Origin: Arabidopsis thaliana
Taxonomy: Eukaryota; Streptophyta; Magnoliopsida; Brassicales; Brassicaceae
Direction of reading: 5' to 3'
Assembly (NCBI RefSeq): GCF_000001735.4
Contig: NC_003076.8
Location: forward strand, 17,115,835-17,179,834
DNA: 64,000 bases
This document shows, in pieces, positions 31,404 to 55,468 of the stretch (positions are counted from its first letter, which is position 1; the number at the start of each line of letters is the position of its first letter). The notes below the pieces were generated by a model, which saw only the letters and a program-made list of their open reading frames with translations, did not search any database and had not been told where the DNA came from. The position numbers and the translations under genes were made by a program.

Positions 31404-32054
31404 GTGAGTGGGAAGTTACTGCTGATTGTGGAATTGTTGTTTTTGGTACAAAAAACATCCTCATTTCAAGGTGTGTGCGCGATCATGTGTGACTTATTTG
31501 TTGTTAAGATTGTGTGACTTGTTTGTTGTTATATATAGGCTGGATTTTTTATGGATCCATAATGGATCCCTGCGATTGTTTTGTCAATAGATGTTTTGGT
31601 TTGTTTAATGATTTATGTGTTTATTGTGATCTTGGTTTTGCTTGTGTGTATAGATCGTAGATGAGAGAATCGTCTCAATAAGTATTTATGCATCTCTTTT
31701 TTTATGGTGCATGTAAAGATAAAGTGTGAATCACAAACAAATAAAGAGATGCATAAATTTGATCAAAAATACTTAGGCGATCATCCCATCTACGTGTTAT
31801 ACACACAAACAAACCAATATTACAATCAACACAAAAATCATGAAACAAACCAAACTAATGAACAATTATCTATTGACACAACCATCTCAGGGATTCAATT
31901 TTGGATGCATCAAAAATCCATCCTACACATCAAAACAAACAAGTCAAACAATCTTAACAGTTTAGATAATCTTATGGTCACACACACCTTGAACCAAATA
32001 TGATTTTTGAACAAAAACAGCAATCCCACAACTAGCAGTGACTTTCCACTTGCC
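31404..32054. repeat. Long imperfect inverted repeat (~300 bp arms, ~36 bp loop)
   Basis: Left arm about 31404-31702, right arm about 31738-32054. Pairs include AGAGATGCATAAAT (right arm, and reverse complement at the left arm end), TATACACACAA, CAAACCAAA, TCTATTGACA, CAGGGATxCA and the outer GGTGTGTG/CACACACC. Similarity runs through the whole arms with scattered mismatches and small indels. A transcript across it would fold into one long hairpin. The open frame at 31704-32003 is just right-arm sequence. Confidence 0.85.
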
Positions 32055-33130
32055 TAGGTGGACTGGTTTGTTTTATAATTATCCAATTTAAGATGTACTT
32101 TTCTCAATTCTTATACAAAAATATTTTGTTTGACCACAAACATGCGTATTGCTTGGGTTTATTTTCCTAAAGAACTTGATAAATTGAACATCATGATGTT
32201 GAATCCTGAAATGAAATAGCAAACAAATTTAAAACTTCTCACCAATGTCTTAAGACAAAATAATCGTACGATTGATAATGAAACGTTTTAAAAGAACTAA
32301 ACTTGTGGACTGAAAGTAGAATTGGTTGTTTTTCAGTTAATCTTAGTGTCATCATGACCGTGAGACATATTTGTTATTAATAAACAATAATTGTGGTAGC
32401 AGAAAATTTGACCAAAATTTTGGTTGCAACTTGCAACCATCGTTACTAGTCTAATGCTTACTGGCAAAAAAATTCATAGTAAAGAAATGTAAACTAGTTT
32501 TTTTCAGGTGATTGTCAAAAAAAAATAAAAAAAAAAAGGTTTTTCAGGCAGAAAATTAAAGCATGTGAATAAGTTTATTGTCGGAATTATGAACTATAAA
32601 CCTATCTACTTCATTCTTGAAAATTTAATTGTATTTTAATTAACTTTTGTCATACATTAATATTTTGTAACGTATAAATATTTAAAAAAATGGTTTCTTT
32701 TTCCAAAAATTTAAACAAATTGATATCATTTTTTTGTGTGAATGAAATAAAAAGCAAACAACAATAAAACTTCTCACCAATTTCCTACTTTGGACAAAAT
32801 AATCGTACGAGTGATAAAGAAACGTTTTAAAAGAACTAGAAAAACTAGTGGACACTCGAGCTCTAGATTTAGTTGGTCAAAATCATTAAGTAATTGGAAT
32901 AGTGGAAGGGGTTAAAAGAAGCAACTAGAGAGTGGAGCCACTCGTTGCTCTCTTAAGAGGAAAGAAAAAAGCCAGTGGTTACGCAATGAAGAACGTATGC
33001 TTTTGCTTCTAAGCCTTTGGTTTTTTATGTGTGGTTCTCTTTTCTTATCTCTATGAACCAACACCAAACATTTTCCAACATTCCTTCATTATATATCAGA
33101 ACAAAACATTATTCGTTCATGAGAGAAACA
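32055..33130. other. Intergenic
   Basis: AT-rich. A short similarity recurs: ATAATCGTACGA.TGATAA.GAAACGTTTTAAAAGAACTA occurs in broken form near 32262 and 32800, suggesting a diverged duplication about 540 bases apart. Promoter and leader of the next gene lie at the right end. Confidence 0.45.
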
Positions 33131-34271
33131 ATGTCTGAAATAGAAAAGCAAAAGCCGGAAGAAGAAGAATCATCCACGACATGGCCGGATATCGAAGAAG
33201 AACTCGTGCTTCCCGATGTGTTACGTAGTGAAGGCGTGAAGAAACTGCATATGAGTATTCAAAGTGAGTGGGATTACCTTCAGAAGTCTGCTTGTCAAAC
33301 AGCTGCAGGAAGAGCTTTGTGGAAACATGTTATTCATGATCCGCTTGCTCATTTGTTTGCTGGAGAGACACATTTGAGAAACCTACACACAAAGATTCAG
33401 ACTGACCGTCTCAACAATGCTCGAGAGGTTTCTGGTGTGATCCTAGCCGTTCGAACTCTCTGGTTTGACACAAGGATTCAAGCTGCTCTGGAGTCTTTCC
33501 ACGGCGATGCAGCACAGGTTGTTCTACTTGGTGCAGGTTTGTTTTCCCCTGTTTAGACATTTTAACTTATGTGTGTATATATATATGTGGAGCATGAGTT
33601 TAAGATAAGTAGCCAACATAGAATGATGTAATTGAATTTCAGGAATGGATGCAAGATCATACAGACTAAACTGCTTGAACAAAAGTGACGTATTCGAAGT
33701 GGATTTTCAAGATGTTTTGGAAACCAAAGCGAGCCTAGTTCAAGCTGCAGTAAACTCTAGAGATGAGCTTAGGATGACAGCGAAATCACTAGTCAGAGTA
33801 GCAATTGATATCAGAGACAACGATTGGTTTGAACAGCTTAAAAAATCAGGTTTTTTGCCAGAGATTAACACGGTATGGGTTCTCGAAGGTATTCTCTATT
33901 ACCTGTCTCACACAGAGGCAATGCAAGTACTAAACCTCATAGCTGAGAAGTGTGGACTAACCAGCACAGTTCTCTTGGCGGATTTCATGAACAAACCATC
34001 AGCTACACTTCCAAACTCTGTGTTCCACTTTTACAGTGACTGGCCTGATCAGCTCTTACCAACTTTGGGATTCTCTCATGTCAAGCTTTCACAAATAGGT
34101 GATCCAGATGCGAATTTCGGTCTGCTCCACGATCCACGGAATCTCTTCAACAAACTTCTCCGCCTGCCAAGGACTGCACAAATCCATCCAGATGATGGAA
34201 AACCATGCTGCCGTTTGTATTTGGTCGAAGCTTCCGGTTCACCGCCTCAAGATAACCAAGCGAGCTTGTAA
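33131..34271 (+). CDS. Leucine carboxyl methyltransferase (LCMT)-family protein
   Basis: Two exons (33131-33536 and 33643-34271) give 344 residues. The fold is a SAM-dependent methyltransferase: motif I appears as VVLLGAGMDARSYRL across the splice junction, followed by FEVDFQDV (acidic loop) and INTVWVLEGILYYLSHTEAM, which is diagnostic of the LCMT/PPM family including the mycobacterial-type S-adenosylmethionine-dependent methyltransferases (TIGR00027). The substrate is unknown; it is not the PP2A methyltransferase itself. In-frame ATGs exist upstream (33119 and farther); 33131 is chosen because MSEIEKQ starts the acidic N-terminus in good context, but 33119 is possible. I remember it as At5g42760. 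Confidence 0.9.
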
Positions 34272-36312: not shown

Positions 36313-38521
36313 ATGGAATCGAATCATCCTCACTTCAAGGTCCGCTTCTTTTCAATAGGTTTCTAGTTCGATTCATGAACTGTTTCTGCAGTCAATTTCG
36401 AACTTGTGAAATCTCCATAACTTGTGCTTTGAATGTATTTGCTAAAGCTATAATCTTGTTGCGTTTCAAAAACCATCCTTTGGAAAAATTGGAGTCTTTT
36501 GGTTGCTTATTGAAATTTGTTTGCAGCTAATTTTGGGATCTTCTTCGATTGCTCGACGTAAGATACTAACAGATATGGGATACCAATTCACTCTCATGGT
36601 AATTTCTTGTTCCTTTGAAATTATTATTCAAAGACTGCATTTTTGTATTTGGGCTTCTAGTTCAAGTAGAAGTTTACTGGTAATTGTTAATGTAGAGTGC
36701 TGATATTGATGAGAAAAGCATCCGCAAGGAGAAACCTGAAGAGTTGGTTTTGGCTTTAGCTGAGGCAAAGGTAACTTCATTAGTCATCTGCAATAAAATG
36801 GTTGCTTTTATGGTTCATGTTTCTTTTTGTTAATCTTGTCATCACAGGCTGATGCTATTGTGTCAAAACTACAAATTAGTGAATGTGAAGATGAGGAACA
36901 ACCGAGAGTCTTGATTGCATCGGATACAGTATGTAGTTTTTGGTTTAGCTAATTACTAGTAAAGTCTCCATCTACTATCACCAAGTTCCATTTTATGTTC
37001 TTGGGAATGCATCATCATCTTCTTTGGAAATATACACTCTTACGTCGTAATAGCTCTGATTTGTCCTGCACCAGAAGTTGCTTTATGGGTTTTATCTCTT
37101 TAGGGTCCTCTATATCTTACTCTGAAGCTAGTATTTGTCATTCTTTAGGTCTTGATCTACTCTTGTTTATTCTGTGAAATTTAAGTCTTTATGCTCTGCC
37201 TACATGATTTGATATCGCATGTTTTGTAGCTCCGCCTACAATTATCATTTCTGCTTCCACCAGTGTTTTTATTAACTGGAGGGACCTGTTTCATGCATAT
37301 ATCTTTTATTAAGCCAAAGGTGTTTTATATAGCATTTGCTCTTCATCAGTCTCATTGATAAACCGGCATAATTTTTTCCCAGGCTGAAGCAATCATGCAG
37401 CGGATCCCTGATGGTGAAAACATAGAGGAGGATAAGTCGACCTTACTTATTACTTGTGACCAAGTACTGAGCTATATTTAAACTTTCTGTGTTTGCTCAA
37501 AGCTTTACTATGATATTATCAACTAGCTAGCTGTAATGGACACCCATGTTAGGTTAGGTTAGTGATTAAATGGAGTCTAAAGAGCTAAGATTGTTTAAAC
37601 ATTCAGGTTGTTTGTAATTTATAGGAGTTGACTAATGAAAGATGGGGCATTCTAAGGACAGAAATGGAATTTGGTGATAATAGATAGTCTATGAGAGACT
37701 TGGGTTTAATGTTTTGAATTGTATGAAGGTGGTTGTCTATGAAGATGCTGTTAGAGAGAAACCCTCGAGTGTCGAAGAAGCAAGGGAGTACATAAGAGGT
37801 AAGCTCACATGATTTGTTTTGCTTACTATAACTCAAGGCTTAAGGTTAAAGAACTAAATTCAAAACACAGGCTATTCCAAGGGGCATACAGCAACAGTGA
37901 GTTCTGTGGCTGTGACAAATCTCAAAACAGGAGTCAGAAAAGGAGGCGTCGATAGAGTGGAGGTAACACTATAATCTTGCGTTTCATTAAAGTTAGGATT
38001 GTTACAATTTGGGAAATATATAGCATCAGCTGATGATGTAAATTCCTAACAGATCTATTTCAATGAAATACCGGAAGAGACTATCGAGAAACTGGTGAGT
38101 GGTGTTTTGTACAAGTTTAAGACATATATTTCACCATATCAATATTGAAGTTAAGGCTGTGTTGATGAGCAGATTGAGGAAGGCATGGTGCTTAAGGTGG
38201 CTGGTGCACTCCTAATCGAGCATCCGCTAATCTTGCCATGCGTTAAGGAAGTGGTTGGATTCCTTACCTTGTCCATTTTAAAATATGAACCATTATATGA
38301 ATTTACAAGGATTTAAGTCTATATAGTCTATCCCTTCTTCTTCATAGATACACATGTTGATCATACGGTTTCGTTCCTCTTGTTCTTTTAATACCGTTTT
38401 GGAGCATGGGATGTTAAACTAGGTTGTATTGTTGTATCAGGTTGGGACAACAGATAGTGTGATGGGTCTGCCCAAAGAATTGACTGAGAAACTGATAAAG
38501 GAAGTATTGGCAAGCACATAG
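36313..38521 (+). CDS. Maf/HAM1-family nucleoside triphosphate pyrophosphatase
   Basis: Ten coding exons would give 233 residues if all are used. Maf proteins hydrolyse non-canonical or selected NTPs to NMP and pyrophosphate. Seen: the N-terminal LILGSSSIARRKIL motif, EKPEELVLALAEAKA, the catalytic D segment before VVVYEDAVREKP, GYSKGHTATVSSVAV, and the C-terminal GTTDSVMGLP motif. Exon 4 (36848-36928) and exon 5 (37383-37463) are both 81 nt in phase 0 and encode aligned segments ending LIASDT and LITCDQ; bacterial Maf proteins have only one. Using one exon gives 206 residues, close to bacterial Maf (about 190-210). Other exons: 36313-36339 first, last ends at TAG 38519-38521. I remember it as At5g42770. 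Confidence 0.92.
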
Positions 38522-39006: not shown

Positions 39007-39735
39007 ATGGATGAGATAAAACCAAAGAAAGAAGAGAATTCCAAACGACGTCGTAACGTCAAACCCATTTGCCGTGAAACTGGAGACCACGTCCATTATC
39101 TTCCAACATGCAAAACCAAGCCCAAACCCACGCGTACTCATCACGCGCCACCACCGATCCTCGACTCAATCTTCAAAGTCACTCACAAGCCACACTACTA
39201 CGAATGCAGGAAGAATCACGCCGCTGATATCGGAACCACCGCTTACGACGGCTGCGGCGAGTTTGTTAGCTCCACCGGTGAAGAAGATTCTTTAAACTGC
39301 GCCGCATGTGGCTGTCACCGTAACTTCCACCGTGAAGAGTTAATCCCGGAGAACGGCGGCGTTACTGAGACGGTTCTTGAAGTTCTCAAGATTTCATCGT
39401 GTCAGTTTCGTCGGATCTTTTGCTCACCTTACGGCGGTGGAAAAAGCGAAGGAAAGAAGAAGAAGAAGGAGAAGGAGAGTTATGGAGGGGATCCGATAAT
39501 TAAAGATCGATTCGGCGGTGCGGAGGAGGAGGAGGGGATAGTGAAGAGGTTGAAAACGAAGTTCACGGCGGAGCAAACGGAGAAAATGAGGGATTATGCG
39601 GAGAAGCTTCGGTGGAAGGTGAGACCTGAGAGGCAGGAGGAGGTTGAAGAGTTTTGTGTAGAGATTGGAGTGAATCGGAAGAATTTTAGGATTTGGATGA
39701 ATAATCACAAGGATAAAATTATAATTGATGAATGA
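39007..39735 (+). CDS. ZHD13: Zinc finger-homeodomain protein (ZHD13 / HB27)
   Basis: Intronless, 242 residues. Residues about 64-112 carry the ZF-HD dimerisation domain: [20 protein letters not shown], then [14 protein letters not shown], with the Cys/His pairs intact. Residues about 181-238 form the divergent homeodomain, [20 protein letters not shown] through [17 protein letters not shown]; the recognition helix has the family's Met after Trp. The N-terminus and the linker before the homeodomain are Lys-rich and give nuclear targeting. ZF-HD proteins are plant-specific, mostly intronless, and dimerise to bind ATTA-core sites. I remember it as At5g42780. Confidence 0.94.
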
Positions 39736-43435: not shown

Positions 43436-45141
43436 TTACATTTCCATTGGAGCCACGTCTTGGTCACCTGCAACACCACCACCTCGTTCTGCTGGTGCAG
43501 CCTCGGCAGCTTCGGCCTCACCCTCACCAGCCTCGCCTTCTCCTTCCTCTTCCTCTGGCACTTTCTCAAATGTGTCGATCACTTTCTGTATTGCTTCCTG
43601 GTCCAGGAAGTGGAACGGTTCATCGACTCCTAGAATAGCGACTGTGCAGAGAGAACTCTTCAGTGTTTCCCCTTGCAATGTCTCCCTAACAGCCAAAATA
43701 GCATCTTTGATCAGATCTTCTCTAGAAGAATCCCCAAAGCTCTCAAACCTGCGTTCCAGATAGGTCTTTGCTGCTTGGGAACGGGATCCAATAGCAAAAG
43801 CTTGGTACTCGAAGTAGTTTCCGCTGGGACAGTTGTAGTAAAGGTGGGCTCCAGACTCATCCAATCCACCTACCAGCAAACCAACACCATAGGGTCGTTT
43901 CCATGATCGTTGGGTACAGACCTGTTCATAAAGGCAAACATACACATAAATATTTCCTTTTCCAGATCAAGAAATATAACAAAAAAAACCCTTGGTAAAG
44001 ACAAGAAATATGACAATAATGTAACTTAAGTTGGACCTGTCAAGTAAAATCTCTCCTACAAAAGAGTAAACCAACTAATAAAGTTTGACAATGAGGAAAT
44101 ACAAGACCCTTCCTTTTATAAACACATATAATATATGGGAGCTCTTCCCAATGGCTTTGAAAAGTATTTATGCAGATGTGGATAAAACAGCTAACTTAAG
44201 AAACCATTAGATAGGTGGAAAAACAAAGTGAGAAGTAGCACATAATTACAGAAAAGATGTCGAACAAGCACCTAGCAGGAGTAATTGACTGGTAAGATAA
44301 GTGCATAGTGGTGAGAACGATGCAAAACAAAGAGCGGAATTCACTTCTTAGAGGTACTGAAAATCAATAACTCCAAATAAAAACTGCAGAAACAAGCAAA
44401 AGCACCAGAAGAAACACAAATCTCTTTCTTTTAGAATCCTATTGTTAAGCTCTTAGTTATGGTTAAACTTTTAAATACAAGATTATGCAGCAGTAACAAC
44501 AAACATGCAAACAATTTCACTAAACAAGATTCAAGTTTCTGCTATGATAAATTAAGAAAACTCTTATTTAATGCAATTTAGAATCCTAATCAGCTCAGAT
44601 CAAACCCTAAGCACAAAGTCAAGAAGCTAATGGCTAAATTTGAGCTCAGTGATTCACAGTGTAATCGAATTCCAAATTCCTCAAATTTCAATTAACAATT
44701 ACAACACACTTATCACCGAATCACACAAAACCAAGCGTAATCGATTCCAAATTCCACCAAATCTCAATCAACAAACTACAAAAGCCTAACCTGAGCTTTA
44801 TCAGCAAGATGAACAACGAGACGACCAACAGGAAGAGGAGACTCATAAGTAAAAGAGTGATTAATCGATTCCGATCTCATATACCGAGACAATACACGAC
44901 CGTCGGCTGTGAGACCAGCGATTGCAACACCGATATGGTCATCGACTTTAAAGATCTTCCTCTGATGCGAAGAAAGCTCCGATTGAGCTTTGTTAACACA
45001 AGCGAGAACGACATGAGAACGAGATCTGAGTCCAATTGCTGCAGATCCTTGCTTCACTGCTTCCATGGCGTATTCCACTTGGAATAAACGACCTGTTGGA
45101 CTCCATGTCGTAACATCTGTGTCGTATTGGTTTCTGAACAT
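43436..45141 (-). CDS. PAF1: 20S proteasome subunit alpha type-1 (alpha6)
   Basis: Two coding exons, 45141-44791 and 43921-43436, give 278 residues. The alpha-type N-terminal signature [20 protein letters not shown] is complete, including residues that form the gated pore of the 20S core. The C-terminus is a Glu/Ala-rich tail ([20 protein letters not shown]), typical of plant PAF1/PAF2. Alpha subunits have no protease activity; they build the outer rings and dock the 19S regulator in cytosol and nucleus. The single intron is long, about 870 bases. I remember it as At5g42790. Long frames on the plus strand here are shadows. Confidence 0.96.
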
Positions 45142-54610: not shown

Positions 54611-55462
54611 TTAAACTCCCTCATCACGTTCTCGGTTCCATTGCTCAATTCTCGCCCTCCTTTCCTCGCTTCCTTCTCTCACATTTCGTGGGCTTCTGCT
54701 CCGTTTCGGGCTTCCATGTCTCCTCCTTCCACCACCATCCCGATCATGCCTCTCTGATCTATCACTGCTCCTTTTCCCATTTCCATGCCGGTCACGGTCC
54801 CTAACGTCCCCTCTCTCTCGCTCTCGCGAATGCTCTCTCTTACGTCGAGGGCTTATACTCCTGCTTCGACTTCTGCTTCCCCGACGGTATGAACGACGAT
54901 ACCTCCCAAACAATTTCCTCCTAAGCTCCCTCGAAATCTGCTTCACATGCATGAAATTACAGTACCCACCACGGTTACAGCTGTTTTCTTCATACTGCCT
55001 ACAAGTAGCTTCCCTAAAATCCGTCACAGGAGAGAAATCAGCAATGATAGGACGACCGGAATAAAATCTCCCCTGCAAAGCCTGCAACGCAGCAGCTGCG
55101 TGATCCTCCTCCTTAAACAGAACATACACATTCCCAATCATATGATCAGCAAGATTGTCACAAACATTGAGACTCTCCACTTCACCAAACTTGTTGAGTT
55201 CTTCGAAAATATCTTCGTAGAAATCCTCAAAGTGGTCTTGGATCTTACTCGGGTCTAACGGCTGTCCCTGAGGATCCACACCTGGAGTTATCATGTCAGG
55301 TCTCTGGTACATGTTCGAGAGGAGAAGCGTCGGCGAGATGGTGGGACGGTTATGAAGCCGTGAGCACCGGTCACCGTGACGACAAGCACCAATCTTAAAG
55401 TAAAACGGACAATTCACTCTATCCTTTTCAGTACCAAAGATTGAAGCTAAATGCTCTGCCAT
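54611..55462 (-). CDS. U2AF35B: Splicing factor U2AF small subunit B
   Basis: Recognises the 3' splice-site AG together with U2AF65. Intronless coding region, 283 residues. Order: CCCH zinc finger 1 (C18, C27, C33, H37 in [20 protein letters not shown]), the U2AF-homology motif (UHM) about residues 42-146 with [24 protein letters not shown] finger 2 ([20 protein letters not shown]), then an Arg/Ser-rich tail ([18 protein letters not shown]) and a DRDR/ERRAR-rich end. An upstream in-frame ATG two codons earlier (MRM) sits at the edge of the spliced leader; MAEHL is preferred by homology. A 5' UTR intron precedes it. I remember it as At5g42820. Confidence 0.95.
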
Positions 55463-55468
55463 TCTCAC

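Follow-up and report, generated by a model that had tools for sequence, protein, structure and literature searches.

A Maf-like gene of Arabidopsis thaliana carries two adjacent coding exons, exons 4 and 5, that are homologous alternatives of one Maf segment located at the active site of the enzyme (Table 1). Judged from the sequence, it is fairly likely that this tandemly duplicated pair is used alternatively in a plant nucleotide pyrophosphatase, and the gene is a probable case of an active-site exon switch. The gene, which we take to be AT5G42770, lies in the window analyzed here, which is a stretch of 64,000 nt from contig C5 (positions 17115835-17179834). Its ten coding exons are all on the plus strand, and every intron has GT-AG boundaries.

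Table 1. Coordinates of the Maf-like gene, the intronic pairings, and the related loci. Positions without a contig prefix refer to the window.
Feature	Position	Strand	Remarks
Maf-like gene, coding part	36313-38521	+	Model from sequence and Maf homology
Exon 1	36313-36339	+	
Exon 2	36527-36598	+	Constant; signature residues S16 and R19; subfamily position 1 is Ala18
Exon 3	36696-36770	+	
Exon 4	36848-36928	+	27 aa, terminus LIASDT; catalytic Asp, then Thr (last codon ACA)
Exon 5	37383-37463	+	27 aa, terminus LITCDQ; catalytic Asp, then Gln (last codon CAA)
Exon 6	37729-37798	+	
Exon 7	37871-37962	+	
Exon 8	38053-38094	+	
Exon 9	38173-38253	+	Constant; subfamily position 3 is Glu169, YceF-type
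Exon 10	38441-38521	+	
Stem, left arm	36970-36993	+	Intron 4; imperfect pairing from 36962, 33 nt past exon 4 donor
Stem, right arm	37662-37685	+	Intron 5; imperfect pairing to 37701, 27 nt before exon 6 acceptor
Weak second pair	36776-36797 with 37618-37639	+	Intron 3 with intron 5; 86% complementary, -18.3 kcal/mol
Paralogue	C5:26559755-26561040	-	One exon at the segment, 84 nt, ending ADT
Intronless Maf copy (L019)	C2:10854328-10854924	-	Single segment ending ADT

The first-pass annotation had described exons 4 and 5 as equal in length and phase, and both are indeed 81 nt long, in phase 0, and flanked by AG and GT sites. It had also given protein lengths of 206 residues with one of these exons and 233 with both. 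These lengths hold if exon 9 ends at 38253, a position placed by analogy with the paralogue and with the intronless copy (the letters of the latter being compared by eye); an end at 38250 gives 205 and 232 residues. Since all four combinations of exons 4 and 5 stay in frame, nonsense-mediated decay would clear neither the form with both exons (233 aa) nor the form lacking both (179 aa). Intron 4, at 454 nt, is too long for steric exclusion. Mutual exclusion is therefore not enforced by the reading frame, by intron length, or by spliceosome type (all introns being GT-AG).

The products of the two exons, ADAIVSKLQISECEDEEQPRVLIASDT and AEAIMQRIPDGENIEEDKSTLLITCDQ, align end to end as originally claimed and include exon-specific peptides (e.g., VLIASDTVVVYEDAVR versus STLLITCDQVVVYEDAVR). 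Eight of the 27 residues are identical at the same positions, and the ungapped BLOSUM62 score of 35 was equalled in 14 of 200,000 shuffles. At the DNA level, identity is 41/81, and the central parts of the peptides have almost no residues in common. On the Pfam Maf profile (PF02545), scores are 143.2 bits with exon 4 alone, 144.2 bits with exon 5 alone, 139.4 bits with both exons, and 109.1 bits with neither, such that either exon brings a gain of 34-35 bits. The single-exon forms lie far above the cut-off of 27 and cover profile positions 1-186 of 187, which places the protein in this family. A profile of 106 bacterial Mafs gives the same picture, with 173.4 bits for the exon 4 form, 173.7 bits for the exon 5 form, 170.6 bits for the double form, and 139.5 bits for the form without exons 4 and 5. 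On this profile, the double form breaks into two matches (model positions 5-80 and 61-189), and their overlap is the stretch that is fitted by both exons. The pair is thus adjacent, homologous, and equal in both length and phase. The equal profile fit and the overlapping model stretch uphold the earlier proposal of a duplicated active-site exon pair.

Part of the gain in bits is due to length alone, since proteins with a shuffled exon 4 or a shuffled exon 5 still reach 147.4 ± 3.8 bits (maximum 161.2) and 145.8 ± 3.4 bits (maximum 155.7), respectively, on the bacterial profile (n = 100 each). Drift was simulated for exon 4, with substitutions only (neither indels nor splice sites being modeled), until identity had fallen to 41/81 in the absence of selection. 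The frame remained open in 596 of 2000 runs, and in 113 of the 2000 both the open frame and the catalytic Asp were kept. For 100 of the drifted copies with an open frame, scores averaged 150.9 ± 4.6 bits, with a maximum of 164.4, compared to 173 for the real exons. That the real exons outscore the drifted copies suggests that exons 4 and 5 are probably both maintained.

The introns flanking exon 5 contain a candidate RNA stem. Its core is a 24-nt inverted pair in which 22 of 24 positions are complementary (-28.9 kcal/mol) and one of the two remaining positions is a G-U pair. Exon 5 is the only exon enclosed by the stem, whose left arm starts 33-41 nt past the exon 4 donor and whose right arm ends 27-43 nt short of the exon 6 acceptor; a branch-point-like TTAAT is found 19 nt 5' of the same acceptor. 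Across the genome (119.66 Mb in 7 contigs), the left-arm pattern with up to three mismatches occurs at two sites, namely itself and its inverted partner, and a reversed control has none. When the 100 nt at the start of intron 4 are paired with the right arm, the energy is -38.3 kcal/mol, a value attained by 0 of 500 shuffles and by none of 407 slid window controls (the best of which reached -27.1). Similarly, when intron 4 is aligned locally to the reverse complement of intron 5, the score is 75, above a null of 38 ± 6.3 with a maximum of 67 (n = 500). In the fold of 36696-37798, eight sampled positions of the arms have pairing probabilities of 0.79-1.0, and a longer imperfect pairing joins the stretch between 36962 and about 37108 to that between 37572 and 37701. 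As in docking site-selector systems, an intronic pairing is thus predicted to loop out one of the alternative exons, in this case exon 5. Within the window, equally good 24-nt pairs with a spacing of 200-1500 nt are present in one other structure, a foldback element. A dispersed-transposon origin of the stem was rejected, as each arm region matches only itself in BLAST searches (E 0.1); these searches also missed the partner arm, indicating that similarity outside the core is weak.

The duplex formed by introns 4 and 5 as a whole has an energy of -129.0 kcal/mol, compared to -108.6 ± 5.8 kcal/mol for dinucleotide shuffles, and is matched by 1 of 100 shuffles; the case for the stem therefore rests on its core. 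In the full fold of 36696-37798, the exon 4 donor and the exon 5 donor alike are mostly paired, so the folding of naked RNA alone gives no preference for exon 4. A second, competing pairing, as in docking site-selector systems, was not detected. A candidate selector located 3' of exon 5, from 37514 onward, resembles that of exon 4 but is not significant, being equalled by 212 of 500 shuffles, and the pairing between intron 3 and the right arm is equalled by 282 of 500. Because no counterpart pairing was found for exon 4, mutual exclusion is something that we infer, and the stem as modeled would account for the skipping of exon 5, not for that of exon 4. The weak second pair (Table 1) would loop out exons 4 and 5 jointly and crosses the main stem. 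Its pattern has six genome matches with up to three mismatches, including itself and its partner (reversed control, one), and it is not favored in the full fold of this region; it is probably a product of chance. Among the other whole-intron duplexes, those of intron 3 with intron 4 (42 of 100 shuffles as good) and of intron 3 with intron 5 (24 of 100) are not significant, and for intron 2 with intron 4 the count is 1 of 100. Introns 4 and 5 likewise show no significant similarity in direct orientation, an equal score being reached by 274 of 300 shuffles; weak similarity is seen between introns 3 and 4 in direct orientation (16 of 300) and between introns 3 and 5 in inverted orientation (10 of 300).

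Several of these results would also be compatible with an intronic inverted repeat that is simply the by-product of an old local inversion or hairpin, or that mainly back-splices exon 5 into a circle. The weaker similarity beyond the core is what an old inverted duplication is expected to leave, exon 4 has no matching structure, and the observation comes from a single genome; the occasional shuffle that matches the whole-intron duplex and the pairing of both donors in the full fold point the same way. However, the pattern is found nowhere else in the genome and is not a dispersed repeat, and the placement of the arms near the exon 4 donor and the exon 6 acceptor, around exon 5 alone, is harder to reconcile with a by-product. 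We consider this explanation a close call that falls slightly on the improbable side.

The Maf signature S-R-E-K-D-K contains the catalytic Asp (PMC3899018). All six residues (S16, R19, E39, K58, D84, and K96) are present in the exon 4 and exon 5 forms alike, and each is retained in 105 or 106 of the 106 bacterial Mafs. The first-pass annotation had placed SDT and CDQ merely beside the catalytic Asp. This proved inexact, as the Asp (residue 84 of the 206-aa form) is encoded within either alternative exon and is the second-last codon of each. The last codon of the exon specifies residue 85, which is position 2 of the three residues that define Maf subfamilies and is Thr or Gln depending on the exon. 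According to the study of these subfamilies, YhdE-type Mafs have R-T-Q and act on dTTP, UTP, and modified pyrimidines, YceF-type Mafs have W-Q-E and act on m7GTP, and many eukaryotes, including plants, have two Maf genes (PMC3899018). In the Arabidopsis protein, positions 1 (Ala18) and 3 (Glu169) are located in constant exons, so the choice of exon is a choice between A-T-E and A-Q-E. Neither form belongs to a published subfamily: the exon 5 form agrees with YceF at two of the three positions, the exon 4 form agrees with YhdE at one of three, and the Ala at position 1 is outside both classes. In its sequence outside exons 4 and 5, the protein is YceF-like.

Bacterial Mafs provide a background against which these combinations can be read. 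The sample included 112 loci, in sets of 15, 5, 23, and 29 plus 40 further matches chosen from the search behind the set of 29, most of which rank second by score within their genome, and it takes in 70 of the 110 matches of that search. Fragments L063 and L064, from the search behind the set of 23, were excluded beforehand, and removal of six identical rows left 106 sequences. Positions 2 and 3 are strongly coupled among these 106, with Gln-Glu in 51, Thr-Gln in 41, Thr-Glu in one, and other combinations in 13. The A-Q-E combination of the exon 5 form is present in four of the 106. The sole Thr-Glu case, L056, is distant from the plant protein, as 41 of 193 aligned residues are identical to the exon 5 form. 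This locus (genome G008) has the rare A-T-E, like the exon 4 form, and is a possible bacterial test case for the pocket.

In a tree of the 106 bacterial Mafs plus the paralogue and the exon 5 form, from which the exon 4 form was excluded, the two plant proteins adjoin L020 (support 96/91). They belong to a group of 18 rows (100/99), of which 16 are bacterial and many are named as Patescibacteria-type lineages; 13 of these 16 had been fetched for their resemblance to the plant proteins. Position 2 in the 16 bacterial rows is Gln in 14, Leu in one, Gly in one, and Thr in none, and position 3 is Glu in 12. The predominance of Gln in this group suggests that Gln85 is probably the older state of the frame and that Thr is derived.

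We propose that each exon copy would supply an equivalent part of the enzyme, of which Asp84, the catalytic residue, and residue 85 are the last two positions. Exon 5 would contribute Gln85 and thereby a YceF-like pocket (Ala-Gln-Glu) with a predicted preference for m7GTP. Exon 4 would contribute Thr85 to the same frame (Ala-Thr-Glu), for which weaker m7GTP binding or a shift toward pyrimidine nucleotides is predicted. With exon 5 looped out, only about 60 nt of the 800-nt path between exons 4 and 6 would lie outside the stem, and this shortened path should favor the exon 4 form; when the stem is not formed, exon 5 would be used. The full version of this scheme, in which one gene serves two substrate classes by exon swapping (m7GTP for the Gln form and pyrimidine or modified-pyrimidine nucleotides for the Thr form) and the stem sets the choice, is unlikely to hold in its entirety. 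The first-pass annotation had suggested a change in substrate preference. One part of this suggestion has gained substance, since the swapped residue after the Asp is a published subfamily signature; the effect on the substrate itself is one that we infer.

Mutant enzymes bear on this point. In YceF, the Gln at position 2 is located at the bottom of the base pocket, and its replacement with Ala (Q70A) changes the KM for m7GTP from 32.8 to 173.3 µM and kcat from 1.2 to 5.0, such that kcat/KM declines only from 3.7 to 2.9 × 10^4; E154A, like Q70A, changes kcat/KM little (PMC3899018). Given the small drop in kcat/KM, a single residue may not switch preference, and by analogy these data support a role of position 2 in binding and speak against an all-or-none switch. 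They would also suit exons that are alternative but leave the substrate unchanged and instead act on regulation, stability, or partners by way of their variable middle, where exons 4 and 5 have almost no common residues. This possibility appears rather unlikely, as the difference falls exactly at a residue of the subfamily signature, and this residue shows strong coupling to residue 3 among bacterial Mafs.

The paralogue, presumably AT5G66550, has introns around the segment at positions that match those of the Maf-like gene, and its signature is A-T-E, as in the exon 4 form. Its exon has 12 residues, plus the Thr, in common with exon 4 and 10 with exon 5, and the corresponding scores are 46 and 34. 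The intronless copy L019 has two in-frame stops (TAG and TAA), of which a slightly shorter stretch shows one, TAA. It is a processed retrocopy of the paralogue type, and the parent's exon 9-exon 10 joint is visible by eye in its letters. The paralogue exon may descend from either exon 4 or exon 5, as the retrocopy scores 39 against both.

The paralogue shows that one such exon can suffice, which raises the question of whether only one of exons 4 and 5 is functional in the Maf-like gene, the other being a relic or a rarely used cryptic exon, such as an exon 5 excluded by the stem. The stem would suppress exon 5, and the exon 5 donor (CAA/GTACTG, with the slash marking the exon end) is farther from the usual consensus than the exon 4 donor (ACA/GTATGT). 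Nevertheless, both exons have kept frame, length, splice sites, the Asp, and an equal score despite their 41/81 identity, and no drifted copy of exon 4 exceeded 164.4 bits, compared to 173 for the real exons, which makes a relic quite improbable. Although the splice sites of both exons are intact, the frame is kept, and the double form is only about 4 bits below the single forms on the Pfam profile (139.4 bits), it is very unlikely that inclusion of both exons is the norm and yields a 233-aa Maf in which the catalytic segment is repeated in tandem, because this form scores slightly below either single form and splits into two profile matches that share a model stretch, the paralogue has one such exon, full-length bacterial matches of about 530-585 nt have no space for a second 81-nt segment, and the stem would favor exon 5 skipping.

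The nearest analogue of the Maf exon pair is found in the COQ-2 polyprenyltransferase of helminths, annelids, and molluscs, which has the mutually exclusive exons 6a and 6e (PMC7434440). As in the Maf-like gene, homologous alternative exons remodel the active site of an enzyme; the COQ-2 exons select the substrate by the claim of the paper, with a change of product, and two residues very near the substrates differ between them (PMC7434440). However, COQ-2 is a different enzyme, from a different kingdom and with a different chemistry, and its case is backed by RNA-seq in several species and exon removal in C. elegans, whereas the evidence for the Maf pair comes from sequence. Within the Maf family, YhdE and YceF have all six invariant residues in common with the Maf-like gene, and in E. 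coli the Thr and Gln states are on separate genes, with residue 3 matched accordingly as Gln or Glu (PMC3899018). In the Maf-like gene, by comparison, one Glu frame accepts Thr or Gln, and the Ala at residue 1 occurs in neither the YhdE nor the YceF class.

For the stem, the closest parallel is provided by docking site-selector RNA structures, which are described for the mutually exclusive exons of Dscam, srp, 14-3-3zeta, and MRP1 (PMC6071210). In those genes, and by prediction in the Maf-like gene, long-range intronic pairing loops one alternative exon, and the right arm of the Maf stem lies in the intron 3' of the pair, as in right-docker genes. In the animal mechanism, the other exon requires a second pairing of its own (PMC6071210), whereas the Maf-like gene has one significant pairing. 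In Arabidopsis, a known mutually exclusive exon pair is that of FLM/MAF1, whose exons encode 19 and 15 aa of the interaction domain of a transcription factor, one of the exons being termed cryptic; MAF in this case stands for MADS AFFECTING FLOWERING and is unrelated to Maf (PMC3266260). In an Arabidopsis proteomic study, 11 of 2442 events are mutually exclusive exon events, and the locus prefix AT5G42 is absent from the main text (PMC13136898).

Among the listed titles and abstract starts of open-licence papers, none was found that deals with the exon 4/5 pair or with a plant case of mutually exclusive splicing via RNA pairing. The Maf-like gene is named solely in lists in one paper (PMC4714525), and a B. 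napus homologue of the paralogue appears as a table row only, with no exon type in the passages seen (PMC7397149). The A. thaliana annotation may already carry two transcript models of the Maf-like gene. A scan of viral contigs found no Maf relative. In rice, knockout of the Maf-like gene NAL22 results in narrower leaves and lower expression of cell-division genes, and the protein fits neither known Maf subfamily according to its authors (PMC9962836).

Alternative homologous exons at an active site are of a known kind, and what is new here is the Maf case together with a candidate RNA stem. If the proposed exon switch is real, splicing would select the nucleotide class that is cleared by a house-cleaning enzyme in a model plant that allows either form to be produced, knocked out, and assayed, the Gln form would clear m7GTP from cap and RNA decay, and the stem would be the plant equivalent of docking-site control in animals. 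Furthermore, because one segment is swapped in a constant frame, the gene would offer a test of which residue sets Maf specificity.

Among the neighboring genes in the window, the frame at 39007-39735 presumably encodes a ZF-HD homeobox protein and that at 43436-43945 a proteasome subunit. On the minus strand, a frame at 54611-55468 is one that we take to encode the U2AF small subunit, a 3' splice-site factor; its location about 16 kb from the Maf-like gene is probably a coincidence. Directly upstream of the Maf-like gene, two plus-strand frames (33017-33556 and 33645-34271) appear by eye to be one intron-split methyltransferase-like gene. Human ASMTL is a fusion of Maf and a predicted methyltransferase (PMC3899018), so the presence of methyltransferase-like frames beside a Maf-like gene may merit attention. 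Finally, a near-perfect hairpin of 571 nt at 31440-32010 (-234.9 kcal/mol, z -17.65) has at least 81 genome matches, itself included. It is a dispersed foldback or MITE-like element, unrelated to the Maf stem, and a possible source of small RNAs.
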